Positions 6,159-36,169 of a stretch of DNA of 64,000 nucleotides are shown in pieces. The notes beneath the pieces are model-generated. The model did not search any database. It was not told the DNA's origin and saw only the letters and a list, made by a program, of their open reading frames with translations. The stretch is from positions 2,418,001 to 2,482,000 of the forward strand of contig NZ_CP060295.1 of NCBI RefSeq assembly GCF_014302995.1, given 5' to 3'. The DNA is from Variovorax sp. PAMC26660 (GTDB lineage Bacteria; Pseudomonadota; Gammaproteobacteria; Burkholderiales; Burkholderiaceae_C). A program made the position numbers and the translations under genes. How positions within the stretch are numbered: the stretch's first letter is position 1; each line of letters starts with the position of its first letter.

Positions 6159-6192
6159 GATGAACGTGGGTTCCTTGGGCCGAAGGACGCAA

Positions 6193-7178: not shown

Positions 7179-7206
7179 TTCCCGCGCTTCAACGCACACA
7201 GACAAA

Positions 7207-7229
7207 AGGCTCCCTCGGGAGCCTTTTTC
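7207..7229. terminator. Bidirectional intrinsic terminator
   Basis: AAAAGGCTCCC-TC-GGGAGCCTTTTT forms a GC stem with T-runs on both strands. It lies between the RRM gene and the convergent SDR gene and can serve both. Confidence 0.85.
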
Positions 7230-7265
7230 AATGGCAATGGATCTGTGCCTGGCGCTTTTTCTTCT

Positions 7266-8048: not shown

Positions 8049-8082
8049 GCGTGAGTGGCTTCCGGGTGTTTTCTTTTTTTCT

Positions 8083-8742
8083 TCAGCGCTTCTTGGCCGG
8101 AGCCGCAGCCATCGCCGGCGACGGCATCAGCATGCCGCGCACCCGGCCGTTCAGGTTGGCTACGCCGCTCAGGTTGTCATAGTCGAGCGTGTCGCCCGTG
8201 AACTGGTCGGTGCCGCGAAGGAGCGTGACCGGCTGGTTCGACGTGACGCGCTCGGTGTCGAGAAAGGTGTGCAGGAACTCGCCGCGGAATTCGAGGCGCG
8301 GCATCGGCTTGCCGTTGGCGCCCACCGACGGGTCGCGAATGACGATGGCATTGCCGAACAGTTGGATTTCGCTGCCATCGGAGTTCGACAGACCGCGGTT
8401 GGCCGTCGAGCGCGTGACCAGTCCTTCGGGGGACACGGAGCGCATGCGCACCTTGTCCACCTCGATGGTGTCTGTGTCCGGATAGTGCCGCCCTTCAGTG
8501 CCATGAAGCTCGCTGCGCAGCTCGCCGCTGGGCAGGAAATTCTTGATCACGAAGTCGCGCATGAAGTAATCGGGCTCATGCGTGGGCGCGGTCTTGGCGG
8601 AAGGCTCCAGCAGCTTGGGCGCATTGCGCACCAGCCAGTAGGTGCCCAGCGCCACGGCCGCCGTCAGGATGATCGGCAGATAGATCGTCGCGCGGTCGAG
8701 CACATTGCGCACCTGGCTCCACACGCGTTGGATGTCGTTCAT
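8083..8742 (-). CDS. lptC: LPS export system periplasmic protein LptC
   Basis: A 219-residue bitopic protein with one N-terminal membrane segment (residues ~20-42) followed by a periplasmic OstA/LptC beta-jellyroll domain. LptC accepts lipopolysaccharide from LptBFG and passes it to LptA across the periplasm. The family pattern DYFMRDFVIKNF and HYPDTDTIEVDKVRM is present. Its ATG overlaps the kdsC stop by 4 bases. The usual neighbours lptA and lptB are not in the window; an SDR gene takes their place. Confidence 0.87.
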   Translation of the reverse strand: MNDIQRVWSQVRNVLDRATIYLPIILTAAVALGTYWLVRNAPKLLEPSAKTAPTHEPDYFMRDFVIKNFLPSGELRSELHGTEGRHYPDTDTIEVDKVRMRSVSPEGLVTRSTANRGLSNSDGSEIQLFGNAIVIRDPSVGANGKPMPRLEFRGEFLHTFLDTERVTSNQPVTLLRGTDQFTGDTLDYDNLSGVANLNGRVRGMLMPSPAMAAAPAKKR

Positions 8743-9287
8743 CGGTTCGGGCCCATGGCAGCCTCGAGCAGCGGCCGGTACTGGCCGCAGGCTGTCAGAA
8801 GCAGATCGCAGAATTCGCGCGCCGCACCTTCGCCGCCGCGCGCCTTGGTGACGTAGCGCGCAATGCCGCGCACCTCGGCGTGCGCGTTGGCCGGCGCTGC
8901 GGCAAAGCCGACGCGGGTCAACACCGGCAGGTCGGGCCAGTCGTCGCCGATGGCAGCGGCCTGCGCCCAGTTGAAGCCAAGCTGTTCGAGCATGGCTTGG
9001 GCGGCAGGCAGCTTGTCTTCGGTGCCGTAGCGCACGTGCTCGATGCCCAGCGCTTCGAGCCGCACGCGCAGCGGCTTGGAATCGCGCCCGGTGATCACGG
9101 CCGGCGTGATGCCCGCCTTGCGCAGCAGCTTCAGGCCGTAGCCATCGAGGATGCTGAAGCGCTTGAGCGTTTCGCCGTGTTCGGTGAAGTACACGCCGCC
9201 ATCGGTCAGCACGCCGTCGATGTCGAAGAAGACGATGCGCACATCCTGTGCGGCGAGCAAGGTCTCGGCCTGGAACTCGAGCGGCAT
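8739..9287 (-). CDS. kdsC: 3-deoxy-D-manno-octulosonate 8-phosphate phosphatase KdsC
   Basis: A 182-residue HAD-family phosphatase of the Kdo pathway, releasing phosphate from Kdo-8-P. The catalytic Asp pair is in VFFDIDGVLTDGG (residues ~20-30), motif II in VITGRD, and motif III/IV in KLPAA and AIGDDWPDLPVL. The small size without a cap domain matches tetrameric KdsC. The start is ATG 9287 (MPLEFQAE), whose first base is shared with the last base of the kdsD stop (TGATG); a longer open frame upstream is only the shadow of kdsD. Confidence 0.93.
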   Translation of the reverse strand: MPLEFQAETLLAAQDVRIVFFDIDGVLTDGGVYFTEHGETLKRFSILDGYGLKLLRKAGITPAVITGRDSKPLRVRLEALGIEHVRYGTEDKLPAAQAMLEQLGFNWAQAAAIGDDWPDLPVLTRVGFAAAPANAHAEVRGIARYVTKARGGEGAAREFCDLLLTACGQYRPLLEAAMGPNR

Positions 9288-10288
9288 CAGATGACCTTCG
9301 CGCGCATCAGGTCGTTGGTGTTGATCGCGCCAACGATCACGCCCGCGCCGTCGATCACGAACAGGCGGGTGATGCCGCATTGCTCCATCAGCTCGGCGGC
9401 TTCCACCGCCAGCGCGTCGACGCGGATGGTGCGCGGCTCGCGGTGCATCACGTCGGCGGCCTTGGGCGTGCGCAGGTCGGCGCCCGCTTCGATCAGGCGG
9501 CGCAGGTCGCCGTCGGTGAAGATGCCCGAGGCGCGGCCGTCCGGCTCGACCACGGCGGCAGCGCCGAAGCCCTTGATGCTCATGGCACGCATCAGCTCGC
9601 TGATGGTGGCGGACGGCGGCACGCGCGGCACTTCGTCGCCCGAGCGCATCACGTCGCTCACATGCGTGAGCAGCTTGCGTCCGAGCGCGCCGCCCGGATG
9701 CGAGCGCGCGAAGTCTTCGGAGCCGAAGCCGCGCGCGTCGAGCAGCGCCACCGCCAGCGCGTCGCCCATCGCCATCTGTGCGGTGGTGCTCGCGGTGGGG
9801 GCGAGGTTCAGGGGGCAGGCTTCCTTGGCCACGCCGGCGTCGATCACGATGTCGGCGTGGCGCGCCAGGGTGGAGTCGGCGCGGCCGGTCATGGCGATCA
9901 GGGGCACGCCCTGGCGCTTGACCACCGGCAGGATGACGGTCAGCTCGTCGACCTCGCCGCTGTTGGAAATCGCGAGCACCAGGTCGACCGACTTGATCAT
10001 GCCGAGATCGCCATGGCTGGCCTCGGCCGGGTGCACGAACATCGCGGGCGTGCCGGTGGAGGCGAGGGTGGCGGCGATCTTGCGGCCGACATGGCCGCTC
10101 TTGCCCATGCCCATCACGACCACGCGGCCGCGAACGTCGAGGATCTTGCGCACGGCCTCGACAAAACTCGGGCCGACCCGGGTCTTCAGACCAAGAACGG
10201 CTTCGGCTTCGATGTCGAAGGTGACGCGTGCCCGAGCGAGGATGGCTTCGGGGTCGACCACATGGGCCGGGGCGGGGCGGGAACTCAT
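9287..10288 (-). CDS. kdsD: Arabinose-5-phosphate isomerase KdsD
   Basis: A 333-residue KpsF/GutQ family isomerase that converts ribulose-5-P to arabinose-5-P, the first step to Kdo and LPS core. An SIS domain fills residues ~45-185 (MGMGKSGHVGRKIAATLASTG, then MFVHPAEASHGDLGM with the catalytic His). Two CBS domains follow (from VMRSGDEVPRV and from VMHREPRTIRV), as in the standard enzyme. It starts the kdsD-kdsC-lptC-SDR operon and is divergent from the Kef-type antiporter gene, 86 bp away. Confidence 0.94.
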   Translation of the reverse strand: MSSRPAPAHVVDPEAILARARVTFDIEAEAVLGLKTRVGPSFVEAVRKILDVRGRVVVMGMGKSGHVGRKIAATLASTGTPAMFVHPAEASHGDLGMIKSVDLVLAISNSGEVDELTVILPVVKRQGVPLIAMTGRADSTLARHADIVIDAGVAKEACPLNLAPTASTTAQMAMGDALAVALLDARGFGSEDFARSHPGGALGRKLLTHVSDVMRSGDEVPRVPPSATISELMRAMSIKGFGAAAVVEPDGRASGIFTDGDLRRLIEAGADLRTPKAADVMHREPRTIRVDALAVEAAELMEQCGITRLFVIDGAGVIVGAINTNDLMRAKVI

Positions 10289-10374
10289 TGGCCGATTTTA
10301 CGGGCCGGGCGGTGCCCGGAACCTCATGGCCCGGGGAAGCCCGGGGCACGGACATTGCTCTAGCATCGGCGCCT

Positions 10375-12360
10375 ATGTCTTCGTTCGATCTCACGCTGTT
10401 GTATCTGCTGGCCGCAGTGATCGGCGTGGTGGTCTGCCGGTCGCTGAAGCTGCCGCCGATGCTGGGCTACCTGTCGGCCGGCGTGCTGATCGGGCCGCAT
10501 GCGTTTGCGCTGGCGCAGAACTCCGAGGGCATCCGCCATCTGGGCGAATTCGGCGTGGTGTTCCTGATGTTCGTGATCGGGCTCGAATTCAGCCTGCCCA
10601 AGCTGCGCGCCATGCGCAAGCACGTGTTCGGGCTCGGCCTGCTGCAGGTGCTGCTGACGATGGCCTTCGCCACGATCGGCGCGCTGCTCATCTCCACGCA
10701 GTTGCCGCCGTCCTGGCGCCTGGGCTGGCAAACGACGCTGGCGCTGTCGGGCGCGCTCACCATGAGCAGCACCGCCATCGTGGTCAAGCTGATGGCCGAG
10801 CGGCTCGAACTCGAAAGCGAGCACGGCAAGCGCGTGATGGGCGTGCTGCTGTTCCAGGATTTGGCCGTGGTGCCGCTGCTGGTGCTGATCCCCGCGCTCG
10901 GCGCGCCGCCCGAGGCGCTGGCCAAGGCGCTCGGCCTGGCGCTGCTGAAGGCGACCTTCCTGATCGGCGTGCTGCTCTACGGCGGCCCGCGCATCATGCG
11001 CTGGTGGCTCACGCTGGTGGCCCGGCGGCGCAGCGAAGAACTGTTCATCCTTAACGTGCTGCTGATCACGCTGGGCCTGGCCTGGCTCACGGAGCTGGCC
11101 GGCCTGAGCCTGGCGCTGGGCGCATTCATCGCGGGCATGCTGGTGTCGGAGACCGAATACAAGCACCAGGTCGAGACCGACATCCGCCCCTTCCACGACG
11201 TGCTGCTGGGGCTGTTCTTCATCACGGTCGGCATGTCGCTCGACTGGCACATCGTGGTGCAGCGCTGGATGCTGGTGGGCGTGCTGCTGCTGGTGCCGCT
11301 GCTGTTCAAGCTGGCGCTGGTGACGGTGCTGGCGCGTGTGCTGGGCGCCACCTCGGGGGTGTCGCTGCGCACCGGCCTCTATCTGGCGCAGGCCGGCGAA
11401 TTCGGCTTCGTGCTGTTGACGCTGGCACAAGAGCGCAGCCTGCTGCCGCCGTGGCTGGCCAACCCGGTGCTGGCCTCGATGGTGCTGTCGATGCTGGCCA
11501 CGCCGTTCATCATCATGTACAGCAACGCCATCGTGCGAAAGCTGGTGGCCAGCGACTGGCTGCAACAGTCGCTGCAGATGACAAGCATCGCGCGCAAGAC
11601 CATCAACACCGCCAAGCACGTGATCATCTGCGGCTATGGGCGCTGCGGCCAGAACTTGGCACGCATCCTCGAGCGCGAAGGCATTCCCTACATGGCGCTC
11701 GACCTCGACCCCGACCGCGTGCGCCAGGCCGCCGCCGCCGGCGACTCGGTGGTGTTCGGCGACGCCGCGCGGCTGCAGGCCCTGATGGCCGCCGGCCTGG
11801 CCCGCGCCAGCGCCGTCGTCGTGACCTACCTCGACGTGCCGGGCGCGATGAAGGTGCTGGCCAACACCCGCGCCCACGCCGCGCATGTGCCGGTGATCGT
11901 GCGCACGCAGGACGACCACGACCTCGAAAAACTGCAGGCGGCCGGTGCGACGGAGGTGGTGCCCGAGGCCATCGAGGGCTCGCTGATGCTCGCGAGCCAT
12001 GCGCTGGCGCTGGTCGGCGTGCCGATGCGGCGCGTGATCCGCGTGGTGCAGGACCAGCGCGACGCCCGCTACAACCTGCTGCGCGGCTACTTCCACGGTG
12101 CCGACGACGACAACGCCGACGAGATCGACCACGAGCGGCTCAACAGCTTCACCCTCACATCGGGTGCACGCGCGATCGGCCAGACCCTCGAACAGATCGC
12201 GCTGCCGACACTGAACGTGCGCGTGGCCAGCCTGCGCCGCCACGACGGCCAACCCCGCACGCCAGCCGGCGACACGGTGCTGTCGGATGGCGACACCCTG
12301 GTGCTGTCCGGCAAGCCCACCGCGCTGGCGATCGCCATCGAGCGCCTGCAAAAAGGCTGA
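10375..12360 (+). CDS. Kef-type monovalent cation:proton antiporter (CPA2) with RCK domains
   Basis: A 661-residue inner-membrane protein. About 12 hydrophobic segments (residues ~5-385) form the CPA2 Na+/H+ exchanger domain, with the unwound-helix region and ion site near LALGAFIAGMLVSETEYKHQVE. A TrkA-N/RCK nucleotide-binding domain follows (HVIICGYGRCGQNLARIL, GxGxxG fold), then a TrkA-C domain (SGARAIGQTLEQI to the end). It resembles KefB/KefC/YbaL; whether it carries K+ or Na+ and whether glutathione adducts gate it cannot be read off. The ATG at 10375 is chosen because the reading frame upstream overlaps the divergent kdsD and lacks membrane character. Confidence 0.88.
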   Translation: MSSFDLTLLYLLAAVIGVVVCRSLKLPPMLGYLSAGVLIGPHAFALAQNSEGIRHLGEFGVVFLMFVIGLEFSLPKLRAMRKHVFGLGLLQVLLTMAFATIGALLISTQLPPSWRLGWQTTLALSGALTMSSTAIVVKLMAERLELESEHGKRVMGVLLFQDLAVVPLLVLIPALGAPPEALAKALGLALLKATFLIGVLLYGGPRIMRWWLTLVARRRSEELFILNVLLITLGLAWLTELAGLSLALGAFIAGMLVSETEYKHQVETDIRPFHDVLLGLFFITVGMSLDWHIVVQRWMLVGVLLLVPLLFKLALVTVLARVLGATSGVSLRTGLYLAQAGEFGFVLLTLAQERSLLPPWLANPVLASMVLSMLATPFIIMYSNAIVRKLVASDWLQQSLQMTSIARKTINTAKHVIICGYGRCGQNLARILEREGIPYMALDLDPDRVRQAAAAGDSVVFGDAARLQALMAAGLARASAVVVTYLDVPGAMKVLANTRAHAAHVPVIVRTQDDHDLEKLQAAGATEVVPEAIEGSLMLASHALALVGVPMRRVIRVVQDQRDARYNLLRGYFHGADDDNADEIDHERLNSFTLTSGARAIGQTLEQIALPTLNVRVASLRRHDGQPRTPAGDTVLSDGDTLVLSGKPTALAIAIERLQKG

Positions 12361-23797: not shown

Positions 23798-23824
23798 AAC
23801 GCCCGGCCTTTGCCGGGCGTTTTG
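23798..23824 (+). terminator. Intrinsic terminator after gyrB
   Basis: AACGCCCGGC-CTT-TGCCGGGCGTTTT forms a strong stem followed by T residues, 27 bp past the gyrB stop. It isolates gyrB from the Clp-like operon, which therefore needs its own promoter in the remaining ~70 bp; I could not identify one with confidence. Confidence 0.8.
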
Positions 23825-23894
23825 CTTGGCGGATGTGTCAAATCCTTGAGGCAGAATCTCCGCCAATTTCGTTCGCGCCCACAGGACTCCTCCC

Positions 23895-26800
23895 ATTCCC
23901 TCCAGCCTCGCCTTCTTCGAACTGACCACCGTGGCCGGCGAGACCGTCGTCACCTCGCTGGCCTTTCCCGAGATGGCGTGGCTCGGCAGCAGCGCGCATG
24001 CAATGGCGCGGCGCATGACGCAGGCGGTGCAGTCGCATCTGATCGACAAGGGCCGCTATCTCGAGGCCGTGCAGATCAGCGACCCGCCGGCATTCGAGCG
24101 GCATGAGTTCGAGGTCGACCTGCAGGGTGGCAGCGACCCGCTGCTGCACCCGCCGCGCCGCTGCCGACATGTCGCGTTTCTATCCAGCGGCCCGGCGAAC
24201 ACGCCCTGCATCGGCTACGTCCCCGCGCTGGGCATCGTCGCGCTCGCCGAGGCGGAGCGCCTGCGCGAAGCCGTGAGCGAGGCCATCGTGCTCGAACACC
24301 GCCGCACCGGCCGGCAGACCGACGTGCGTCGCCAGGTGGCCGCCCAATGGTTCGAACAGGTCGAGCTGGCGCAATTGCCGCTCGACCTCGTGTTCCACAG
24401 CGCCGAAGCCCTGCGCAAGCTGAAGGACGATCGCGCCAAGCCGCTGCTTCCCACGGTGGCCGACGAAATGAGCATCGGCTCGCGCACCGCCGTCGGGCTG
24501 GCTGTGCCGCTGACAGCGCTGAAGCGTGCAGCGGAAGGCCGGTTCGCGCGCAGCGTGTTGATCGTCGGCTCGGAAAGCAGCGGCAAGACGGCGCTGATCC
24601 ATCAGTACACACGCGAGCGCCGCGACCGTGCCGCCGGTTCTCCGTGGGAAACCAGCGCGGCACGGCTCATCCAGGGCCTGACGCGCGACGGCAGCTGGCA
24701 GCAGGCGCTGACCACGCTGTGCCGTGAACTGGCCGCGCGCGAGGTGGTGCTGTACGTCGGCCACCTGGCCGAGCTGTTCGAGGTCGGCCAGTACCAGGGC
24801 AACAGCATCAGCCTGGGCGATGCCTTGCGCGAGCCGCTGGCACGCGGCCAGTTGATGCTGCTGGCCGAAGCCACGCCCGCTGAACTCTCGCAGATCGACC
24901 TGCGCAGCCCCGGCTTCTCGGCGCTGTTTCAGACGGTGCGCCTGCCTGAACTGCCCGAGGCCGAGCAGGAGCGCACGATGCTCACCGCGGTGGCGGCCCT
25001 GGCGGCCGAACACCGTGTCGAGGTCTCGCCCGATGCGGTGTCCGAGCTGATCGCGCTCCAGCGCCGCTTCTCGCCGTACTCGGGCTTCCCGGGCAAGGGC
25101 ATCCGCTTCTTCGAGGAGTTGATCCTGCACATGCGCGGCCAGCAAGGCGCAGTGATCGGGCGCGATGACGCGCTCGCCGCGTTCTGCGCCGAGACCGGCA
25201 TGCCGCGGCGCATGCTCGACGCGCGCCTGCCGCTCTCGCTCGACGAAGTCGAAGGCTTCTTCCGCAGTCGTCTGTTCGGCCAGCCCGAGGCACTGTCCAT
25301 CGTGACGAACCTGCTTGTCACCACCAAGGCCGGGCTTGCGCGCGGCGGCAAGCCGATCGCGTCGATGCTGCTGATCGGCCCGACCGGTGTGGGCAAGACG
25401 GAGACGGCCAAGGCACTGGCCGAGTTCATGTTCGGCGACCCGCACCGCATGATCCGCATCGACATGAGCGAATACGCCGACCCGGCCGCCGTGCTGCGCC
25501 TGCTCGGCGATCTCGGCGGCGACGAGGGTGTGTTGATCGGCGCGGTGCGGCGCCAGCCGTTCTCCGTGGTGCTCTTCGACGAACTCGAAAAGGCCCACCC
25601 CAGTTTCTTCGATCTGCTGCTGCAGGTGCTCGGAGAAGGCCGCCTGACCGGCGGCGACGGCCTCACCGCCAACTTCTGCGGCAGCTTTGTGGTGATGACG
25701 TCGAACCTGGGCGCCGAGGCGATGCAGCGCATGCCGATGGGCCTGGGCGCGGTGCGCGGCGATCCGCGCGCTCACTTCGAGCAGGCGGTGCAACAGGCCT
25801 TGCGCCCCGAACTGTTCAATCGCATCGACCACATCGTGCCCTTCGCCACGTTGTCGGCCGCCGAGCGCGCGCCGATCTTCGGCCGCGAGATGACGCTGCT
25901 GCGCAAGCGGGAAGGCCTGCTCGAACGCAGCGCTGAAATGACGCTCGACGACGGCGTCGCCGCCCGTCTCGCCGCGCTGCCCGGCGACGAACGCTATGGC
26001 GCCCGCGACGTGCAGCGCGTGCTGCGCCAGCAACTGCTGCTGCCGCTCGCGCATGCGCTGTCGCCGCATGCCTACGTCACGCCGCTGGCTGTGCGGATCG
26101 GCACGGGCGAAGCCGGCCAGCCGCTCGGCGTGCGCGTCGACCCGCTGCAGCGCCCGATCGACAACGCGCCACTGCTGACCGCCGAGGCATTGGCCGACGC
26201 GCGCCGCCATTGGCAGCGCGTTACCGAAGGTCCGCTCTTCGTGAACCTGGTGAACCACGTGTTCCGCCTCGACGACGAACGGCGCCGCTACGAAAAAAAG
26301 CGCCACCGCGCACCGCACCTGCCACATTGGGACGGCACGCCGTCCGCCAGCCGCGCACGCACGCTGAGCGCTGTGCAGCAGACGGCGCAGGGCTTGTTCG
26401 CCGAGATCATGTCGCTCGAGGGTCAAGCCCTGCTCGCGTTGGTCGGCGAGTCCGATGCGCCGCCCGACATCGCCGCGTGGCGCGCCGGCTTCACCGCGTT
26501 CAAGCAGCAGGCCTTCCATGCGGTGCGGCCCGACAGCGGGGTCTGCACCGTGGGCCTCTACGCCGCACCGGCATTGGCCACCACGCTGCATGACGCGTGG
26601 TGCGAACTCGCGGCGCTCGCCGGTTTCGAATTCCGCTCGCAGGTGGTCCGGCTCGGCGACGAGCCCCGCAAGCCCGCGCCGCCCGCCGACACCGAGGCGC
26701 GCGATGAAAAGCGCGAGGAGAAAACCGATGACGAGGCACAGCCCAGCCCGTACCTGAAATTTCCCTGGCCGCAGGCATCGGGCCGCAAGAGCCTGATCGT

Positions 26801-27134
26801 GGGCTTCGAGATCGAACTCAAGGGCCCCGCGGTGTCCGACTACTTCCGCCAAGAAAGCGGCGTCTGGCGCATCTGGGTCGGTGACCGCAACAAATCCGAC
26901 GCCTGGGTCTCGGTGCGCAGCGGCACGCTCTCGGGCTTCAAGACGCCGCACAACGTGCATCGCCAGCACTTCTTCGACGGCCGGCCCGTGCACCGCGTTC
27001 TCAGGGAAGGCGTGCTGGCCGCGCAGCAGACCGACTGGCGCGCCCCGTTCCCGGATGCGCCCGCGTGGAAGCACGCGCTCGACGCCCAGTTCGACGTGCT
27101 GATGGATCGCATGCTGCTCGGGGAGGACGACTGA
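23895..27134 (+). CDS. Clp-like double AAA+ ATPase with C-terminal release-factor-like domain (system protein A)
   Basis: A ~1079-residue protein, first of three paralogs. Numbered from the proposed ATT start: an N-terminal domain shared with B and C (1-175); D1 with Walker A GSESSGKT (225-232) but a ruined Walker B (VVLYVGH, ~284-290) and no arginine finger (SPGFSALF); D2 of ClpA/B type and intact (Walker A GPTGVGKT 495-502, Walker B VVLFDE, sensor 1 TSN, arginine finger RPELFNR, sensor-2 GAR ~702). No GYVG pore loop or ClpB coiled-coil M domain is seen. Residues ~878-993 resemble the release-factor PCRF domain (WCELAALAGFEF, then KSLIVGFEIELKGPAV...ESGVWRIW), split by an acidic linker. The start is inferred: GTG 23931 is the first common start codon, but ATT 23895 has AGGA at 8-nt spacing and restores residues aligning to protein C. 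Function is unknown; ATP-driven remodelling is predicted. Confidence 0.75.
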   Translation: MPSSLAFFELTTVAGETVVTSLAFPEMAWLGSSAHAMARRMTQAVQSHLIDKGRYLEAVQISDPPAFERHEFEVDLQGGSDPLLHPPRRCRHVAFLSSGPANTPCIGYVPALGIVALAEAERLREAVSEAIVLEHRRTGRQTDVRRQVAAQWFEQVELAQLPLDLVFHSAEALRKLKDDRAKPLLPTVADEMSIGSRTAVGLAVPLTALKRAAEGRFARSVLIVGSESSGKTALIHQYTRERRDRAAGSPWETSAARLIQGLTRDGSWQQALTTLCRELAAREVVLYVGHLAELFEVGQYQGNSISLGDALREPLARGQLMLLAEATPAELSQIDLRSPGFSALFQTVRLPELPEAEQERTMLTAVAALAAEHRVEVSPDAVSELIALQRRFSPYSGFPGKGIRFFEELILHMRGQQGAVIGRDDALAAFCAETGMPRRMLDARLPLSLDEVEGFFRSRLFGQPEALSIVTNLLVTTKAGLARGGKPIASMLLIGPTGVGKTETAKALAEFMFGDPHRMIRIDMSEYADPAAVLRLLGDLGGDEGVLIGAVRRQPFSVVLFDELEKAHPSFFDLLLQVLGEGRLTGGDGLTANFCGSFVVMTSNLGAEAMQRMPMGLGAVRGDPRAHFEQAVQQALRPELFNRIDHIVPFATLSAAERAPIFGREMTLLRKREGLLERSAEMTLDDGVAARLAALPGDERYGARDVQRVLRQQLLLPLAHALSPHAYVTPLAVRIGTGEAGQPLGVRVDPLQRPIDNAPLLTAEALADARRHWQRVTEGPLFVNLVNHVFRLDDERRRYEKKRHRAPHLPHWDGTPSASRARTLSAVQQTAQGLFAEIMSLEGQALLALVGESDAPPDIAAWRAGFTAFKQQAFHAVRPDSGVCTVGLYAAPALATTLHDAWCELAALAGFEFRSQVVRLGDEPRKPAPPADTEARDEKREEKTDDEAQPSPYLKFPWPQASGRKSLIVGFEIELKGPAVSDYFRQESGVWRIWVGDRNKSDAWVSVRSGTLSGFKTPHNVHRQHFFDGRPVHRVLREGVLAAQQTDWRAPFPDAPAWKHALDAQFDVLMDRMLLGEDD

Positions 27135-30100
27135 TGAGCGGACGCGGCAGCCTGCGCATTCCGGTTTTCGTCACGCATCGAAAGGAAGCGGGCTACCGGC
27201 TGCGCTGCCTGTTCTTGCCGGAAATCGATGCGACGGCCATGCGCTACGAAGCGGCGCTGAACAAGCTGCGCCAGGCCGTCGTGCATCACTTCCGTGGCAC
27301 GCGCAGCACGCGCGCCACGCTCGACGAGCGCCTGTGGCTCGGCTTCGCACCCGAACTGCGTTTCGAGCTCGTGCCGCTGGGCTTCGACAGCGGCCGCCGC
27401 TGGGTCGAGGGCGCGTTTGCCGCGGCCCACTTCACGGTCGGCGGACGCCGCTACGCCTGCCTGCCGCAGCTCGACGGCACGGTGGCCGACCTCGGCGAAT
27501 CGCACCTCGACAAGGCGCAGCGCACCGAGCGGTTGGTGGCCAGCATCCAGGCCTGGTTCCGCGAGCAGCGCAAGGAGCGGGGCGACGCTTTCGACCCGCA
27601 ACGCTACCTGGCCGCGCCCAATGACGAACTCGGCGAGCTCGAAATCTCGATGCACCTGGCGCAGGGGCGCTTCCCGTTCGAGAGCGAGCACGACCTGCGC
27701 GCCGCGTTGCGCGACGACGGCATCGGCGACGGGCCGACCGAGATGGCGCGCGCCGCCGTCGACCTGAACGATCTCTACCCGGACGAACTGACCCAGGCGA
27801 TCCTGCGTGACGACGCGATCGAGGAACTGGGCCGCGCGATCTACCGGCCCGACGGCGGTGCCGGAGCCATCGTGCTCGTGGGTCCGCGCGGCGCCGGCAA
27901 GACGGCGCTGGTGCACGGCGCGCTGCGGCAATTCATGGCCTCCGAGACCGGCCGCGACCGCGCGAAGCTGCAGAAGATCTGGCATCTCGACCCGATGCGC
28001 GTGATCTCCGGCATGAGCGTGATCGGCCAATGGCAACGCCGCATGGCCGTGCTGCTGCAGCACCTGCAGTTCCGCCTGCGCGACGATTTCCGCATTGCCA
28101 GGCCCGACCATCTGTACTGCGACAACCTCGTCGCGTTGCTGGCGATCGGCAAGAGTTCGCAGAACACATTGACGCTGGCCGATGTGCTGCGCCCGCTGCT
28201 CGAAAAGCGCGCCTTCACCATGATTGGCGAGGCCACGCCCGAGGCCTGGCAGAAAGTGCAGCAGCGCGACCGCCGTTTTGCCGACCTTTTTCGCGTGATC
28301 CGCGTCGAGCCGCCATCGCGCGAGGCGGCCATCCGCATCGTCGGCTGGCGCCGTGCCGAGCTGGAGCGCCAGCACGAGTGCCGCATCGCTGCCGGCGCGG
28401 TGGCCGAGCTGCTGAAAATGGAGCGCCGCTTCGCCGCCGACGAGGTGCTGCCGGGCTCCGCGATCCGCGTGCTCGACCGGCTTGCCGTGCGCCACGCGCG
28501 CGGAGAGGTCGGCCGCGCCGAAGTGCTGGCCGCGTACACCGCGGCGTACCACTTCCGCGAGAAGCTGTTCTCCCGCCAGATCGGCCTGGCACCGGCGGAA
28601 GCCGCGGCGCATTTCGCGGCACGGTTGATCGGCCAGCCCGAGGCGCGCGCGCAACTGGTCGATGTCGTCGCGCTGATCAAGTCCGGCCTCGCGGCGCCTG
28701 GCAAGCCCCTGTCTTCGTTGCTCTTCATCGGACCGACCGGCGTCGGCAAGAGCGAGGCGGCGAAGCTGCTTGCCGACTTCCTGTTCGAGGACGAAGGCGG
28801 CCTGGTGCGCTTCGATATGAACGAATACGTCGACGGCGACGCGACTGGCCGCCTGATCGGCGACGCCTACCGTCCCGACGGCCAGCTCACCGCCGCCGTT
28901 CGCCAGCGCCGCGCCTGTGTGCTGTTGCTCGACGAGATCGAGAAAGCCCATCCGTCCGTGCACGACCTGCTGCTGCAGGTGCTCGGCGAGGGCCGGCTGA
29001 CCGATGCGCTGGGCCGCACCACCGACTTCTCTCAATGCGTGGTCGTGCTCACCTCGAACCTCGGCGCCAGCGCGGCAAGCCGCCACACCGGCTTCGTGCG
29101 GCAACAAGCCGATGTGGCGCACACCTACCGCGAGGCGGTCGAGCGCTTCTTCCGGCCCGAATTCCTGAACCGCATCGACCAGGTCGTAGGCTTCACGCCG
29201 CTGGGTGCGGACGACATCGCCGCCATCGCCCGGCTGCAGCTGGAGCGCGTGCTGGCACGCGACGGCTTCGTGCGCAGGCTGACCTTCCTGAACGTCTCGG
29301 CGCAGGCGCTGGATCATCTGGCGCGGCTCGGGCATGACGAGGCGCTTGGCGCGCGGGCGCTGAAGCGCGGCATCGAGCGTGCATTGACGCAGCCCATCGC
29401 GCAGCGCCTGGCGGCTTCGCACAGCGGCCAGCCGATGCTGCTGGACGTGGCCTTCGGCGAGGGCGGGCTGACGACCCGCGCCACTGTGCTCGACTACGCC
29501 ACGCGGCGCACGGTCCCGCTGCCGGAAGACATCGGCTCGGCCGCCGGCTACCAGGCACTGGCAACCAACGCCGACGCGCTGCACGAACGCCTGCGTGCGC
29601 AGCTCGACGCAGCGCCGGCAGAGCCCGAATCGCTGGCGTTGCGTGCGCTGCAAGTGCGGCTGGACCCGCTGCGCGAGGTGCTGGCACGCCGCAACTGGGA
29701 TCTTTCGGAGCACCGTGTCGCGCCGGGACGCACTGTCAGGCAAAGCCCGCCACGGCCACGCGAATGGCGCCAGACGGGCCACCAGCAGGTGCTCGACGAG
29801 TTGATAGCGCAGCAGGACATGCGGGAATTCTTCGAGCAACTGTTTGCGGGCGCGTCGCCAGTGCGCGGCATGGACACCGAACTCGTGCGCTGGCAGCTCG
29901 AGATTGACCAGTTAGCGGGCCGCGCCGACAGCCTCGGCCGGCATGGCATCGAGCGCGTGGCGGTGGAAATCGTGCCGCTGCAGACCGGCGCCGGCGAGGC
30001 CACAGTCGAGACTGCGTGGGCCGACTACGCAACGCTGATCGCGCAGCTCGATCTGCACGAACTGCCGTCGCCGCGCGCCGGCGTGCGTTGCTTCGAGGGC

Positions 30101-30412
30101 ATCGGCCTGCGCGACGCATTCAGCGGGGAATGCGGCATTCATCTCTGGTACGCCGGCGACGACCGGCCGTTGCCGCTGGCGGTGCGGCTGCTGTCCGCAG
30201 AGCAGGCAGCGCCCGATGCGGCGCCGACACCGCTGCCCACAGAGATCGTGCGCATCCGCCTCGAACCCGCGCGACCCGGCGACCATCGGCGCCTGACCGA
30301 TCTGCGCTCCGGCCGCGTGCGCAAGTTCAGCGGCTCGCTCACCGAAGAAGACTGGCGCCTGCTGCTGTGGGACGGCCGTGCTGCGGCCCGCACACCCGCA
30401 GCACAGGACTGA
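27134..30412 (+). CDS. Clp-like double AAA+ ATPase with C-terminal release-factor-like domain (system protein B)
   Basis: A 1092-residue paralog of A; its ATG shares one base with A's stop (TGATG) and has GGAGG upstream. The N-terminal domain is at 1-230. D1 has a good Walker A (GPRGAGKT 250-257), but the Walker B glutamate is Asn (LYCDNL, D330 N331) and the finger position reads DRRFADLF. D2 is intact (GPTGVGKS 533-540, LLLDEIEKAH with D600 E601, sensor-1 N642, arginine finger R680, GAR 739-741). After D2 comes a ~110-residue helical stretch and a domain at ~935-1007 that resembles PCRF (VAVEIVPLQTGAGEATVETAWADY, then GIGLRDAF...GIHLWY) but with no GGQ. Overlap with A and 21-bp spacing to C suggest a fixed-ratio complex. 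Role unknown. Confidence 0.75.
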   Translation: MSGRGSLRIPVFVTHRKEAGYRLRCLFLPEIDATAMRYEAALNKLRQAVVHHFRGTRSTRATLDERLWLGFAPELRFELVPLGFDSGRRWVEGAFAAAHFTVGGRRYACLPQLDGTVADLGESHLDKAQRTERLVASIQAWFREQRKERGDAFDPQRYLAAPNDELGELEISMHLAQGRFPFESEHDLRAALRDDGIGDGPTEMARAAVDLNDLYPDELTQAILRDDAIEELGRAIYRPDGGAGAIVLVGPRGAGKTALVHGALRQFMASETGRDRAKLQKIWHLDPMRVISGMSVIGQWQRRMAVLLQHLQFRLRDDFRIARPDHLYCDNLVALLAIGKSSQNTLTLADVLRPLLEKRAFTMIGEATPEAWQKVQQRDRRFADLFRVIRVEPPSREAAIRIVGWRRAELERQHECRIAAGAVAELLKMERRFAADEVLPGSAIRVLDRLAVRHARGEVGRAEVLAAYTAAYHFREKLFSRQIGLAPAEAAAHFAARLIGQPEARAQLVDVVALIKSGLAAPGKPLSSLLFIGPTGVGKSEAAKLLADFLFEDEGGLVRFDMNEYVDGDATGRLIGDAYRPDGQLTAAVRQRRACVLLLDEIEKAHPSVHDLLLQVLGEGRLTDALGRTTDFSQCVVVLTSNLGASAASRHTGFVRQQADVAHTYREAVERFFRPEFLNRIDQVVGFTPLGADDIAAIARLQLERVLARDGFVRRLTFLNVSAQALDHLARLGHDEALGARALKRGIERALTQPIAQRLAASHSGQPMLLDVAFGEGGLTTRATVLDYATRRTVPLPEDIGSAAGYQALATNADALHERLRAQLDAAPAEPESLALRALQVRLDPLREVLARRNWDLSEHRVAPGRTVRQSPPRPREWRQTGHQQVLDELIAQQDMREFFEQLFAGASPVRGMDTELVRWQLEIDQLAGRADSLGRHGIERVAVEIVPLQTGAGEATVETAWADYATLIAQLDLHELPSPRAGVRCFEGIGLRDAFSGECGIHLWYAGDDRPLPLAVRLLSAEQAAPDAAPTPLPTEIVRIRLEPARPGDHRRLTDLRSGRVRKFSGSLTEEDWRLLLWDGRAAARTPAAQD

Positions 30413-30433
30413 AAGAAAAAGACCCGCATCCGC

Positions 30434-32704
30434 ATGGCAACGCTTTCGTATCCCCTGGTGTGCTGGCAGCTCGACGACACGTCCGTCTGCGGCATCCTGC
30501 TCGGCACCGACTTCCAGGTGATCGAGCGCAACGCCCGCCGCGTGAAGGCTGCGCTGGCCGAGACCCTGCAGCGTGAACGCGAGCGCGACGGCTACGTGCC
30601 CGAGCCGGACATCGACAACGCGCGGCTCAAGCTGGTGCATGTGTCGGTGAATCTCGCGCACCGCACGGAGAAGGGCAGCTTCCCGGTGCCTCGGGCAACG
30701 GAGTTCCATGTGGCCGCCGTGTTCGGCGAGAACGAGGAAGACGGCTACGCCAAGTGCTACCTGCCCTGGCTCGACCAGAGCTTCTATTACTACGACGACG
30801 CGCAACTGCCGGTGCTGATCGAGCACTACACACGCGAATGCCTCGACGGACTCTCGCCCGAGGCCGCGCAACGCTTCCTGATGCCCGCCGCGCCGTGGCT
30901 CGACCAGATCGATGTGCGGCGCGACGACAAGACCACGAACAGGCAGCATGTGCCACGCCACCTGCGCGAGGCCTATGCGCAGCTCGATGCCGTGGCCGAT
31001 CGCTTGCCCGAGACCGGCGCGCGCCGCGGCCTGCATGTGTTTCCCGAAGTGGCCTGGGAGCAGGGCGCCCTGAGCGACGAGATCGCGGAGCGGCTCGCGC
31101 GCGGCGGCAACCTGCTGCTGGTCGGCGAGCCCGGCGTCGGCAAGAGCGTGGTGATCCTCGAGGCGATCCGCAAGGCGCACCGCCTCACGGTTGCGCGCGA
31201 CGCATCGCCGACCTTCTGGCGCAGCCATGCCGAGCGGCTCGTCGGCCGCGCGAAGTACCTCGGCGAATGGCAGGCGCTGTGCGACCAGACGGTCGAGTGG
31301 CTGGACATGTCGAACGGCCTGCTGTGGGTCACGGACTTCGTGAACCTGCTGCAGATCGGCGGCGAGAGCCCCGAGGAATCGATGGCCGCCTACCTGCTGC
31401 CGGCACTGCGCCGCGGCACGCTGCGGCTGGTCGGCGAAGCCAATCCCAGCGAACTCGAGATTGCGCGCCAGCGGCTGCCCGGATTCATCGACTGCTTCGA
31501 AACCCTGCGCCTGCCCGAGATGGACAGCGTGCGCGCGCGCCGCGTGCTCGAGCTCTTCGCGAGCCATGCGAAGAACACGCTGTCGATCGACATCGAGCGA
31601 CCGGCGCTGGACACCGGCTACCGGCTGCTCGGCCGCTATGTGCGCTACGACAGCTTTCCGGGCAAGGCAGTGCGCTTCTTCGGCGATTGCGTGCGCGAAG
31701 CCATCGCCGGGCAAACAGGCATCGTGACCGAGACCGCCACCATCGCGCACTTCGCGAAAAGCACCGGCCTGCCCGAGAGCTTCCTGCGCGACGACCATCC
31801 GCTGGACGACACGCAGGTGCACGACTTCTTCGCACAGAAGCTGTTCGGCCAGGACGCGGCCATCGGCCACCTGAAAGACGTGGTCTATCTCTTCAAGGCC
31901 GGGCTGAACGACCCTGCCAAGCCGATCGCGACCCTGCTGTTCGCCGGGCCGACCGGTGTCGGCAAGACCGCGGCAGCCAAGGCGCTGGCGCGCTACTTCT
32001 TCGGTGCTGGTGGTGGCACGGACCCGCTGTTCCGCATCGACATGAGCGAGTTCCAGCACGCCTTCCAGATCGCGCGCCTGATCGGCTCCGGCAAACGGCC
32101 CGGGAAGCTGGTGGAACATGTACGGCGGCAGCCGTTCTCGGTCGTGCTGCTCGACGAGATCGAGAAAGCCGATGCCTCGGTGTTCGACCTGCTGCTGACG
32201 GTGCTTGACGAGGGCCGACTGCGCGACAGCCGCGGACGCATGACCGACTTTCGCAGCACCGTGATCGTGATGACCACCAACCTGGGCGTGCGCCACGGCG
32301 CGTCGCTGGGGTTCGGCGAGCCGGCGCCGAGCGACGGCGCGGTGCACGACATCCGGCAGTTCTTCCGGCCGGAGTTCTTCAACCGGATCGACCGCGTCGT
32401 GCCTTTCGCACCACTGTCGCGCATGGCCATCGAGGCCATCGCCGTGCAGGAGCTGCAGGCGATCGCGCAGCGCGAAGGGCTGGCGCGCCGCGGCATGCGC
32501 CTGAACTTTTCGCCCGAGGTCGTAGCGTTCGTCGCGGACAAGGGGTTCAGCCCGAAGTACGGCGCGCGGCCTTTACAGCGCGCCGTCGAGCAGCATGTGG
32601 TGGCTGCGGTCGCGCGGGCGATGTTCGGGCCTGTCGCGGACGGGGCTTGCCTGGAGGTGGTGCTGGTGGACGGGTCGGTCGTGGCGAAGCCAGCGCCCAG
32701 CTGA
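30434..32704 (+). CDS. Clp-like double AAA+ ATPase, short form (system protein C)
   Basis: A 756-residue paralog of A and B that ends right after D2, lacking the release-factor-like tail. The N-terminal domain is at 1-200 (YPLVCWQLDD...IERNARRVKAAL). D1 has a textbook Walker A (GEPGVGKS 231-238) and keeps the ClpB-type pore motif (GRAKYLGEWQ, Y275), but Walker B reads LLWVTDF (D301, F302 in place of Glu) and the finger region reads LPGFIDCF. D2 is complete (GPTGVGKT 505-512, VVLLDEIE D574 E575, sensor-1 N616, arginine finger R651, GAR 710-712) without a GYVG loop. The stop is only 3 bp from that of the convergent gene. No ClpP partner is seen in the window. It could be the core ring to which A and B add specificity (inference). 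Confidence 0.77.
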   Translation: MATLSYPLVCWQLDDTSVCGILLGTDFQVIERNARRVKAALAETLQRERERDGYVPEPDIDNARLKLVHVSVNLAHRTEKGSFPVPRATEFHVAAVFGENEEDGYAKCYLPWLDQSFYYYDDAQLPVLIEHYTRECLDGLSPEAAQRFLMPAAPWLDQIDVRRDDKTTNRQHVPRHLREAYAQLDAVADRLPETGARRGLHVFPEVAWEQGALSDEIAERLARGGNLLLVGEPGVGKSVVILEAIRKAHRLTVARDASPTFWRSHAERLVGRAKYLGEWQALCDQTVEWLDMSNGLLWVTDFVNLLQIGGESPEESMAAYLLPALRRGTLRLVGEANPSELEIARQRLPGFIDCFETLRLPEMDSVRARRVLELFASHAKNTLSIDIERPALDTGYRLLGRYVRYDSFPGKAVRFFGDCVREAIAGQTGIVTETATIAHFAKSTGLPESFLRDDHPLDDTQVHDFFAQKLFGQDAAIGHLKDVVYLFKAGLNDPAKPIATLLFAGPTGVGKTAAAKALARYFFGAGGGTDPLFRIDMSEFQHAFQIARLIGSGKRPGKLVEHVRRQPFSVVLLDEIEKADASVFDLLLTVLDEGRLRDSRGRMTDFRSTVIVMTTNLGVRHGASLGFGEPAPSDGAVHDIRQFFRPEFFNRIDRVVPFAPLSRMAIEAIAVQELQAIAQREGLARRGMRLNFSPEVVAFVADKGFSPKYGARPLQRAVEQHVVAAVARAMFGPVADGACLEVVLVDGSVVAKPAPS

Positions 32705-32707
32705 ACC

Positions 32708-33376
32708 TCAGCGCTGCTGGGGGCACCCCAGCCTGAACTGCCGATCCCGTGTGCGCTTTCGCTCGTCGCGCAGCCCATCCTGTGAATACGCGCCCTGCGG
32801 TTGCCGTCCGACCGCGTCGATCCACTTGATGTGTTCGGCAAGGCCGCCGCACTCGGCCATTTCGTTCACTGCGTTCTGCGCGGCTTGCCGTTCGTACTGG
32901 TGCTGTTGCGCGGCGACGGCCGCGTTGTCGCGGATCGAGGCTTCGCGCGCTTCCGGGCTCATGCCGTCGGCGATGTTCACGTCGCGCCGCAGGCGGACCG
33001 TCGTGGCGCGCGAGCCTTCGGGACACGGGCCATCGGAGTAGGCCGCCTTGCCTGATGGGGTCAGGCACTTGGTCACATCGAAGGTGTCGAGTCCGGTCAC
33101 GCCGGGAGATGTCACGGGCGGGGCGGGCGCAGGCCGGGTCTCCTGCACGGGCGGAGCGACGCGGGATGGTGCCGCAACCGGTTCCGTGGGAAGCCTCGCC
33201 GCCCGTTGTTGCGCCAGCAGCCACTCGGCGCCCAGATAGAACAGGTACACCGCCAGCACGGCCAGCGCCAGCCACAGCGCCCAATGACGCTCCGGCTTCG
33301 GCCGTAGGCCTTGCTCCCACGCATTCATCGCCTCGCGGCGCTCACGTATCGGGTCGTAGTCGTCGTCGGGCTTCAT
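32708..33376 (-). CDS. Single-pass membrane protein with DUF4124-like C-terminal domain
   Basis: A 222-residue protein with a cytoplasmic N-terminus (DDDYDPIRERREAMNAWEQG), one transmembrane helix (~34-54), a Pro/Ala linker and a ~110-residue periplasmic part. The segment FDVTKCLTPSGKAAYSDGPCPEGS is the DUF4124 pattern (Cys...Y-S-D-x-x-C), a small domain of unknown function common in betaproteobacterial envelope proteins; a second Cys pair lies near the end (ECGGL, LGCPQ). The start is ATG 33376. It is convergent with the Clp-like operon and is probably not part of it. The 289 bp upstream (33377-33665) show no feature I can name. Confidence 0.75.
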   Translation of the reverse strand: MKPDDDYDPIRERREAMNAWEQGLRPKPERHWALWLALAVLAVYLFYLGAEWLLAQQRAARLPTEPVAAPSRVAPPVQETRPAPAPPVTSPGVTGLDTFDVTKCLTPSGKAAYSDGPCPEGSRATTVRLRRDVNIADGMSPEAREASIRDNAAVAAQQHQYERQAAQNAVNEMAECGGLAEHIKWIDAVGRQPQGAYSQDGLRDERKRTRDRQFRLGCPQQR

Positions 33377-33665
33377 GGGGCCGCAGTATCTCCGGCCCGC
33401 GATGCACCGCGGCGGGCGTGCGCCGTGCCCCTTTGCGGAATCCTGCACCAAGGCCGCCCGAAAACAGCCCATATCAGGGTTTCCGTGAGGTCTAAGTCAT
33501 AAAACTGACTTCATGCCCGTCACACGGGCGTCACCAGCTATGAAAACAATAGCATTCAACTTCCGGGCGAGGATCGTTCCTCGTAAACGCTATATCTAGC
33601 CCGACTCTTGCTAAGCAAAATCGTCGACGGATTTCACGTCACGCAAGATCGAGGACCACACAGCA

Positions 33666-34184
33666 ATGAACCCATCGCGTCTCCGCCGGCCTCTGGCCGC
33701 GCTGGTATTGGGCGGTACAGCAGCATTCCTCGGGGCCATGTCTTCGGCCCACGCGTTCTCGAACCCGCCCATCCAGGTGGCGCAGGGCATCGAATACATG
33801 TGCGGTGGCGCCGCCCGGGATGAAGCCGCCTTCATGGAAATGGTGTCGCCGCGCTGGGCCGCCACCATCGAATTCGGTGTGAGCGACGGCAAGGGCGCGC
33901 AGCAGCCGGGCTTCCCGGCCAAGGCCCTGGTCGAAGTGCGCCAGAAATACACCGGGCAGGTCGTGCTGGACGTGCAGTCGCAGGGGCCGTACATGCTGGC
34001 GCGGCTCAATCCGGGCGCCTACGACGTGAACGTGACGCTGGGTGGGCTGACGCTCACGCAGTCGCTGGTGGTGATTGCTGGGCTGCCGGCGCGTGCGTCC
34101 TTCGTCTGGCCATCGAATTTCGACATGGCTTCGGTGACGCCGCCGCTGCCGCAGGCGCTGGCGCAGACTTCCGCCGCACGCTGA
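33666..34184 (+). CDS. Secreted carboxypeptidase-regulatory-like (beta-sandwich) protein, paralog 1
   Basis: A 172-residue exported protein with a Sec signal peptide (PLAALVLGGTAAFLGAMSSAHA, cut at ~30). The mature part opens with NPPIQVAQGIEYMCGG and contains an Ig/transthyretin-like stretch (KALVEVRQKY...GPYMLARLNPGAYDVNVTLGG), the form seen in carboxypeptidase regulatory domains. Function is unknown. It is a tandem paralog of the gene at 34303: the openings, EMVSPRW versus ETVSPRW, and the AR-LxPG-Y core match. Confidence 0.8.
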   Translation: MNPSRLRRPLAALVLGGTAAFLGAMSSAHAFSNPPIQVAQGIEYMCGGAARDEAAFMEMVSPRWAATIEFGVSDGKGAQQPGFPAKALVEVRQKYTGQVVLDVQSQGPYMLARLNPGAYDVNVTLGGLTLTQSLVVIAGLPARASFVWPSNFDMASVTPPLPQALAQTSAAR

Positions 34185-34302
34185 GAGACACGGGCGCGTC
34201 CGAGCGGCGTGCCAGTCTTTGATCGGTCAGCCTTTCCTAAGCCACGCGCCGCACATTGGTCGCGTGGCCTCTTGCCACGACGACAAGGAAAGGACCCAGA
34301 CC

Positions 34303-34788
34303 ATGACCTCCCGTTTTCCATCGCGCACGCGGCCCCTGGCGGCCGCCATGCTGTTCGGCGCCGTCCTGCTGGGGGCGCTTTCGTCGGCCCACGCGACGGT
34401 GAACCCGCCGATCTACATGGCGCACGGCGTCGAATACATGAGCGGCGGCATCGGCAGCGATGAAGCGCAGCTGATGGAGACGGTGTCGCCGCGCTGGCCC
34501 GCGACCTTCGAGTTCGCGGTCAAGGATCACAAAGGTGCCGATTTCGCAGCCAACGTGCACGTGACGGTGCGCGACGGCAGCGGCACCGCGCTGCTCGACA
34601 ATGTGGTGTCGGGCGGCCCGTTCATGGTGGCGCGGCTGGAGCCGGGCAACTACGAAGTCGAAGCGCAACTCGGCAACCAGGTGTTGAAACAACCGCTGCA
34701 TGTGCTGCCGGGCGCGCCGACCAAGGCCACGTTCGTGTGGCCGGCGGGCACCGACATGGCTTCGGCCGGCACGCGCACGGTGCAGTAG
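34303..34788 (+). CDS. Secreted carboxypeptidase-regulatory-like protein, paralog 2
   Basis: A 161-residue secreted paralog of the preceding gene, with a signal peptide (LAAAMLFGAVLLGALSSAHA). The mature protein reads NPPIYMAHGVEYMSGGIGSDEA, METVSPRWPATFEF and MVARLEPGNYEVEAQLG. ATG 34303 with GGAAAGGA upstream is preferred over a non-ATG extension to 34219. The cysteine of paralog 1 (YMCGG) is Ser here. The 118-bp gap between them suggests tandem duplication and possibly shared transcription. Confidence 0.8.
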   Translation: MTSRFPSRTRPLAAAMLFGAVLLGALSSAHATVNPPIYMAHGVEYMSGGIGSDEAQLMETVSPRWPATFEFAVKDHKGADFAANVHVTVRDGSGTALLDNVVSGGPFMVARLEPGNYEVEAQLGNQVLKQPLHVLPGAPTKATFVWPAGTDMASAGTRTVQ

Positions 34789-34981
34789 CGCGGCGAAAGT
34801 GGGCACAGGCACCGCTTTTCGCCGGCGCAGATTCGCGGACCCGGCTCGGCCACAACGCCCGCTATCCGGGTGCCTTGCGCTATAGAAAAAATAGCGGCTG
34901 CCGCGTCTTCGAGCGCCTTGAATGCGCGGCATGCGCCTTGCAGATGGTGTATCCCGGGCAGTGCCCGAACCCATTGCCCCG

Positions 34982-36169
34982 ATGCCGATCCGCCCCCTGA
35001 GTGTCCTGACCGCGCTGCTGCACGTCTACATCGCGCTGCGCCTGCTGCCTGCGCTGGCCGTGCTCACGCCGGCGTGGCCGTTGGCGTTGCTCGCGCTGGT
35101 GGTGTCGGCGGCCACGATTCCCTTGCCCTTCGTGTCGCGCCGCATCGGGCGCGATGGTTCGCTGGACGACGTGCTCAAGTGGGTCGGGCTGATCAGCATG
35201 GGCTGGTTCTCGTCGATGTTCGTGCTGACACTGGTGCGCGACGCCGGCCTGCTGCTCGCCTGGCTGGCGAGCGCGCTGGGCGTGCTGCAGGTGCCGTGGA
35301 ACGCGCTGCGGCCATGGAGCGCGCTGGCCGTGCTGGCCATGGCCACGGCCACGTCGCTGATCGGTTTTTTCAACGCGCGCCGCACGGCCGGCGTGAAGCG
35401 GGTGGACGTGCCGATCAGCGGGCTGCCGCAGGCGCTCGAAGGCTTCACGATCGCGCAGCTCAGCGACATCCACGTGGGCCCGACGATCAAGAGCGCGTAC
35501 ATCCAGCGCATCGTCGACGTGGTCAACGGCCTGGGCGCCGACGCCATCGCGATCACCGGCGACCTGGTGGACGGCAGCGTGCCCGAACTGCGCGAGCACA
35601 TCGCGCCACTGGCCGGACTGCGGGCGCGCCACGGCACCTTCGTGGTCACGGGCAACCACGAGTACTACGCGGGCGCGCATGCCTGGATCGACGAGCTGCG
35701 CCGGCTCGGCCTGAAGGTGCTGTTGAACGAACACGTGGTGCTGCAGACGCGCAACGTGCGCGGCGCGCAGACCGACGAAGAGCTGTTTGAAAGCGCGCTG
35801 GTACTGGCCGGCGTGACCGACTTCACCGCCGGGCATTTCGACGCGGCACATGCCAGCGACCCGCATCTTGCGTTGTTCGACGCGCCGCCGCTGGTGCACA
35901 CGCGCGTGCTGCTCGCGCACCAGCCGCGCAGTGCAACGCTGGCGGCAGCGGCGGGCTACCAGCTGCAGCTGTCGGGCCACACGCATGGCGGCCAGTTCTT
36001 TCCGTGGAATCTGTTCGTGCCGATGCAGCAACCCTTCACGGCGGGCCTGCACCGGTTGCATGACATGTGGATCTATGTGAGCCGCGGCACCGGCTACTGG
36101 GGACCGCCGAAGCGCTTTGGCGCGCCCTCCGAAATCACGCTGCTGACGCTGGTGCCTGCACGGCCCTGA
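34982..36169 (+). CDS. Membrane-anchored metallophosphoesterase
   Basis: A ~395-residue protein with about four N-terminal transmembrane helices (residues ~5-135) and a calcineurin-like phosphoesterase domain. Metal-binding motifs appear in order: QLSDIHVG (D-x-H), ITGDLVDG (G-D), GNHEYY (G-N-H-E), LAHQPR and SGHTHGGQFFP (G-H-x-H). It is related to the YaeI/LpxH-like group of membrane-attached phosphodiesterases; the substrate is unknown. The start is uncertain: ATG 34982 puts the first helix at the N-terminus, and ATG 34922 would add 20 polar residues; neither has a clear Shine-Dalgarno site. Confidence 0.83.
   Translation: MPIRPLSVLTALLHVYIALRLLPALAVLTPAWPLALLALVVSAATIPLPFVSRRIGRDGSLDDVLKWVGLISMGWFSSMFVLTLVRDAGLLLAWLASALGVLQVPWNALRPWSALAVLAMATATSLIGFFNARRTAGVKRVDVPISGLPQALEGFTIAQLSDIHVGPTIKSAYIQRIVDVVNGLGADAIAITGDLVDGSVPELREHIAPLAGLRARHGTFVVTGNHEYYAGAHAWIDELRRLGLKVLLNEHVVLQTRNVRGAQTDEELFESALVLAGVTDFTAGHFDAAHASDPHLALFDAPPLVHTRVLLAHQPRSATLAAAAGYQLQLSGHTHGGQFFPWNLFVPMQQPFTAGLHRLHDMWIYVSRGTGYWGPPKRFGAPSEITLLTLVPARP

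Follow-up and report, generated by a model that had tools for sequence, protein, structure and literature searches.

Bacterial ribosome rescue is carried out by tmRNA, Arf factors and RqcH-type quality control, and Clp proteases act after release. Among the Clp motors, those of the ClpA/ClpC class (Hsp100) are the nearest described counterparts of the three proteins analyzed here, designated A, B and C, which share with them a double AAA+ core, a ClpA-like spacing of the Walker motifs and the ATPase motifs of the second ring (D2). A, B and C differ from this class by the loss of the catalytic Walker-B Glu in the first ring (D1), the lack of the D2 GYVG motif and the presence of another N-terminal domain, but also because they are three co-occurring paralogues, two of which (A and B) carry tails related by sequence profile to release factor 2 (RF2, PrfB). 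These tails have domains 1 and 2 in common with RF2, and they probably end in a domain-4-like part; unlike in RF2, the peptide-release (GGQ) domain is missing or degenerate, the codon-reading tripeptide is lost, and the tails are fused behind a Clp motor.

ClpI of Actinomycetota, an additional class of double-ring Clp proteins described not long ago, some of which possess LGF motifs, keeps its ATPase modules intact and contains an M-domain, unlike A, B and C, and the expression "release factor" does not occur in the corresponding paper (PMC10149685). A paper on release-factor evolution does not contain the word "Clp" (PMC6514570), and a third one mentions PCRF solely as a family name (PMC5581361). 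No description of the A-B-C trio was found in the open-licence literature searched. We propose here, with a probability of about 0.42, that A, B and C form a heteromeric unfoldase of the ClpA/ClpC class with a non-hydrolysing D1, a D2 motor and pseudo-RF2 arms aiming at ribosomes or at RF2 partners. That the parts exist as described below is much surer than the aim of the machine, and indeed highly probable.

The A-B-C locus

The DNA analyzed (hereafter the window) is a stretch of 64,000 nucleotides of Variovorax sp. PAMC26660, whose genome is a single contig of 7.39 Mb. In this window, dnaA, dnaN and gyrB, recognised by eye, precede A-B-C. An earlier note had described three adjacent genes of 1079, 1092 and 756 residues, and the corresponding plus-strand open reading frames were confirmed together with their junctions: the ATG of B overlaps the stop codon of A (TGATG, 27132-27136), and a spacer of 21 bp (30413-30433) separates B from C. 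The features of the locus are the following.

23802..23825, + strand: hairpin 3' of gyrB, then TTTT; weak terminator candidate
23895..27134, + strand: gene A, 1079 aa, likely start ATT; N-domain, D1, D2 and RF2-derived tail
23895..24404, + strand: N-terminal domain of A, residues ~1-170, without Pfam family
24435..26147, + strand: double AAA+ core of A, residues 181-751; Walker-B Glu absent from D1, ATPase motifs intact in D2 but GYVG pore loop lacking there
26166..27131, + strand: tail of A, residues ~758-1079; RF2-like domains 1 and 2 with a probable domain-4-like end; GGQ domain absent
27134..30412, + strand: gene B, 1092 aa; N-domain, D1, D2 and RF2-derived tail
29537..30409, + strand: tail of B, residues ~802-1092; RF2-like domains 1 and 2, with an end that by eye resembles domain 4; GGQ domain absent
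30434..32704, + strand: gene C, 756 aa; N-domain, D1 and D2 with an LGF loop in D2, without tail

The gyrB terminator that had been thought to isolate the operon is visible as a hairpin with an 8-bp stem, but only four T follow it and a pattern-based terminator scan does not call it. At the 5' end of A, position 23895 holds no ATG, GTG or TTG, and ATT is the likely start codon: it is kept in three distinct Variovorax sequences (the window; L014, identical at this place to L125; L016, identical at this place to L127), with an ATG near the A start instead in Aquabacterium (L013) and Albitalea (L015). A start at the first GTG of A (23931) would remove the first modelled strand (residues 3-12). 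For B and C, named Variovorax relatives match at 84-95%.

A 254-aa ORF of the minus strand, DUF4124-like by eye, adjoins the cassette (32708-33472), and a similar ORF is also found 3' of the cassette in Variovorax sp. E3 (L016); two similar small genes lie side by side further downstream in the window (33666-34184 and 34219-34788). The E3 locus (3396-12269) holds A in two pieces, B, and a C piece with a short frame, so that the cassette may be decaying in this organism.

A degenerate D1 and a putative D2 motor

A, B and C are double AAA+ modules, with AAA_2 and ClpB_D2-small recognised by Pfam in the D2 of all three, and structure searches with whole-chain models give ClpA/ClpC-type proteins as best matches. 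Motifs were examined in 108 of the 119 A, 107 of the 116 B and 81 of the 106 C relatives listed, which were drawn from the best 120 matches per search, the rows dropped being mostly near-duplicates. The D1 ring is degenerate, as the earlier note had it, since not a single row retains the catalytic Walker-B Glu (0/108 A, 0/107 B and 0/81 C), which is present in the D1 of ClpA from the same genome. The Walker-A Lys of D1 is kept in all A (108/108) and C (81/81) rows and in 83 of the 107 B rows, the other 24 having an Arg. In D2, Walker A, Walker B and the Arg finger are present in A, B and C, and Walker B is kept throughout the relatives (108/108 A, 107/107 B, 81/81 C). The D2 described as an intact ring of the ClpA/B type is thus intact as regards its ATPase motifs, but the GYVG pore loop is missing: it was not found at the D2 pore-loop site of the aligned family rows, and counting these letters anywhere in the protein, irrespective of their place, gives 0/108 A, 0/107 B and 1/81 C.

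A, B and C are devoid of the ClpB M-domain: the spacing between the Walker A motifs of D1 and D2 (270 in A, 283 in B and 274 in C) is near that of the ClpA of the same genome (281) and not that of its ClpB (404). While ClpB is the best-scoring NCBIfam name for the three proteins, their 257-317 bits fall under the 1232 cut-off of TIGR03346, and they reach 192-317 bits against cut-offs of 1232-1900 for the ClpB, ClpG and ClpK disaggregases. ClpV of type VI secretion systems has an AAA_2 D2 as well, but identity with ClpV was rejected on the basis of scores of 209-233 bits versus a TIGR03345 cut-off of 885 and of a Walker spacing of 270-283 versus 411 in the ClpV-like protein of the same genome. 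Furthermore, a search for a named system by family in Pfam, NCBIfam and PADLOC yielded only generic Clp/AAA matches. Neither these resources nor the open-licence papers searched give the family a name, in line with the first description of it as one that could not be named, and no named system, ClpV/type VI secretion or defence, scored.

At the ClpP-type loop site, the window's own proteins have MGL (A), TGF (B) and LGF (C). The strict pattern [ILV]G[FL] is found in 26/108 A, 56/107 B and 64/81 C rows, hence in most C rows, a possible likeness to ClpA/ClpC, compared with 4-6% of random windows, and a looser pattern in 70/108 A, 99/107 B and 74/81 C rows. The genome has a ClpP gene at another place, with the stronger match at 7073718. 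A second ClpP-like protease is found in a 366-aa frame (G000:C1:3940452-3940964).

RF2-derived tails of A and B

The release-factor-like character of the A and B tails, proposed from the sequence, was recovered by profile searches. The tail alignments comprise 24/24 A and 28/29 B tails, the shorter B-set tail of L016 being left out. Against 177,635 PDB sequences, RF2 comes first with both the A-tail profile (E 1.3e-7, the top 21 matches all being RF2) and the B-tail profile (E 8.2e-7, the top 7 all being RF2); the E. coli RF2 entry 1gqe is found with the former and is missing from the 16 PDB matches of the latter. Pfam gives no match in the tails of the window's own A and B, and PCRF is found above its curated cut-off in three relatives (P0115, 1.0e-12; P0118, 9.8e-7; L078, 1.2e-14). 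Taken singly, 3/24 A and 1/28 B tails reach an E-value of 0.05 or lower against PCRF. RhgB_N, matched by 2/28 single B tails (best 0.0033), was taken as chance and rejected as the B-tail family. Profile-profile comparison with hhalign gives Prob 94 and 91 for A tails versus release factors, weak values for B tails (Prob 45 and 34 over 21-24 columns), and Prob 80 and 14 between A and B tails. Since the AAA core fills the match lists of whole-model fold searches (PDB and a viral library), the RF2 identity of the tails rests on sequence profiles and not on fold search.

By these profiles, the A and B tails descend from RF2 and retain its domains 1 and 2, with the GGQ domain missing or degenerate. 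They probably hold a domain-4-like end, a stretch over which the A-tail profile matches weakly (-1.1 bits). The tail of L078 alone matches RF2 in the PDB with E 1.3e-15 over RF2 residues 25-201 and weakly over a second stretch, 322-363 (7.5 bits), and nothing matches in between, at the GGQ domain. In the models of A and B, read by eye, about 22 and 16 residues, respectively, would stand in place of this domain. Not one of 213 tails of A and B contains the G[AST]GGQ motif in its release-factor context, against 29/29 release-factor controls, which all come from genomes of the order to which the window belongs; the bare letters GGQ occur in 14/213 tails, at unaligned positions. The stop-codon tripeptide of class I release factors, SPF or PxT, is found in 0/207 tails with the E-x-G anchor versus 27/29 controls. 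With the GGQ domain missing and the tripeptide lost, the tails would amount to a pseudo-release factor whose fold may serve something else.

Such another use, the chief rival of the proposal made above, is quite possible, if short of even odds: within the same heteromeric Clp unfoldase, the RF2-derived tails would be reused as structural or substrate-adaptor arms making no ribosome contact, the machine acting in protein quality control or on a lifestyle-specific client. The disappearance of both RF2 functional motifs from every A and B tail tested speaks for it, as do the tailless C, the sporadic spread of the family and its neighbourhood, given that no translation or rescue gene recurring beside the trio was found among the 40 largest neighbour clusters or in a by-eye reading of part of the neighbours. 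However, two paralogues that have diverged from each other can still be recognised, in several phyla, as carrying RF2 domains 1 and 2, which goes beyond the need of an arbitrary adaptor. Of the link to translation or DNA put forward at first, the RF2 descent of the tails is what was found on the side of translation, and nothing was found that supports DNA.

Several relatives display other domain arrangements. P0118 (928 aa) and P0122 (954 aa) are shorter Clp-PCRF-like proteins, the former beginning near D1 without an N-domain. In the metagenome-assembled genome G249, where no B or C was found, L078 (4697-8053) encodes an apparently single-gene Clp-RF2 protein, possibly an ancestor-like form of the fusion. 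The C gene of L091 (7659-10971) does not end as expected and continues, by eye, into an FGE-sulfatase-type domain; this tail is no relative of release factors. In the Myxococcota trio L082, weak PCRF matches are seen in the first and third tails (0.0046 and 0.0034); possibly, then, C once had a tail that has since been lost.

N-terminal domains

The N-terminal domain presented as common to the three proteins is found in A and B with hhalign (P 3.2e-6, Prob 88) and weakly between A and C (P 8.4e-5, Prob 60), but is not seen between B and C (P 0.034, Prob 1.5). Clp_N is not among the Pfam matches of the three window N-domains, nor among those of the N-domains of relatives scanned singly (35/37), for which no family is matched by more than one. 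The model of the A N-domain contains two strand-strand-strand-helix units. By eye, the N-domain resembles two HicB-type units.

Distribution and phylogeny

Loci with C relatives were taken from at most 80 places, and 79 were kept. Among these, A, B and C are encoded in this order on one strand in at least 15 contiguous loci of five phyla, namely Pseudomonadota (L013, L014, L015, L017), Myxococcota (L033), Verrucomicrobiota (L069, L070, L085, L086, L088), Planctomycetota (L071, L076, L077, L091) and Acidobacteriota (L083), and no three-gene A/B/C locus in another order was found among the 79. The other configurations are B and C (L073), A and B near a contig end (L079, L080), three divergent members of unsure classes (L082, L089) and C with a weakly scoring Clp on the opposite strand (L020, L045). 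A single member is found in 56/79 loci, 31 of which extend over at least 4 kb on each side; these belong mostly to Saprospiraceae and other Bacteroidota. At the level of whole genomes, at least three members are present in 21 of the 23 genomes behind the chosen loci, a set conditioned on a match and including drafts. This agrees with the claim that a paralogous Clp-like trio travels together, and not with homologues that would be mostly single and unlinked. Contiguity itself is not general: A, B and C are all present but apart in ten Bacteroidota genomes (G230-G239), which brings the spread of the trio to six phyla, and G251 and G249 have two members and one, respectively.

In a tree of 82 hand-chosen rows (quick method, midpoint root drawn, 31/79 inner branches weak, no row for the own ClpV-like locus L008), each of A, B and C has a clade of its own, with SH-aLRT supports of 98, 100 and 100, respectively, and every one of these clades spans at least five phyla. 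The grouping of the B clade with two Myxococcota rows and P0120 has a support of only 88, and the PCRF-tailed P0115, P0118 and L078 branch outside the three clades.

At a finer scale, the trio is rare in the genus of the window: out of 81 genomes, the 3 that have A are also the 3 that have C (E 1e-150), the matches of G007 being partial and its A having an internal stop. C is found in 1/150 genomes of the order and B in 1/398 genomes of the phylum, each time only the window's own, with a search that scores few candidates per genome. In two of the seven non-carriers with the site (G005 and G008), homologues of window 33582-35080 lie directly 3' of gyrB, and the cassette thus occupies a variable site; nothing matches downstream of gyrB in the other five. 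The patchiness within the genus, these flanking genes directly after gyrB and the partial A and C matches of G007 would suit an accessory system of conflict with phages or other invaders, whose Clp ring and pseudo-RF2 arms would sense or act on translation during infection. We consider it improbable because PADLOC gives no full-length defence match (the best, PDC-M37B and DolB, cover AAA stretches only, and the others are short and weak), because the A, B and C clades are deep and separate, and because a search of 72,556 plasmid (E 1e-60) and 50,697 phage records gave none in which 80% of C is covered, a result on which a mobile or phage origin was rejected too. A conserved fourth gene was likewise discarded: among the 40 largest neighbour clusters, only the trio family itself is widely cross-phylum, the larger clusters being found in Bacteroidota loci only, while a few clusters from 3 loci look generic or due to chance. 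Finally, that three independent homomeric Clp paralogues travel together by chance is very improbable, for although each has a complete D1-D2 core and the genes lie apart in ten Bacteroidota genomes and singly in G249, the A-B-C order recurs in 15 loci of five phyla and all three genes are present even where apart (10/10).

Proposed mechanism

A heteromeric unfoldase whose pseudo-RF2 arms address ribosomes or RF2 partners is the reading that we favour. The A-B-C order in 15 loci, the presence of at least three members in 21/23 genomes, the occurrence of A and C in the same 3/81 genomes and the separate clades all suggest one unit, against which the single gene of G249 has to be counted. A, B and C would then be subunits of one double-ring unfoldase, in which the D1 ring probably binds ATP without hydrolysis and serves as a scaffold or gate, and the D2 ring would be the motor. 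The pseudo-RF2 arms would most likely serve to dock this motor on the ribosome, at the A-site and the stalk side contacted by RF2, or on RF2-binding partners. Once docked, the motor would pull either on a nascent chain that has stalled or on a protein bound to the ribosome, and the client could possibly be passed to ClpP.

In ClpA and ClpC, C-terminal tails are on the side where ClpP docks, so they might get in each other's way. Also to be counted against the proposal are the minority share of the strict ClpP-type loop in A, the MGL and TGF of the window's own A and B, the absence of the canonical D2 pore loop, and the weakness of the B-tail hhalign and domain-4 matches. A more specific version, in which the three subunits are obligate and the dead release-factor arms enter the ribosomal A site without codon reading and extract the nascent chain or a bound factor, appears rather doubtful.

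If the proposal is true, a Clp motor with a built-in dead release factor would join unfolding directly to the ribosome. It would also be a Clp ring with its labour split over three paralogues, unreported within the open-licence literature searched, and its carriers include Saprospira, Aureispira, Uabimicrobium and planctomycetes, whose biology is little understood.
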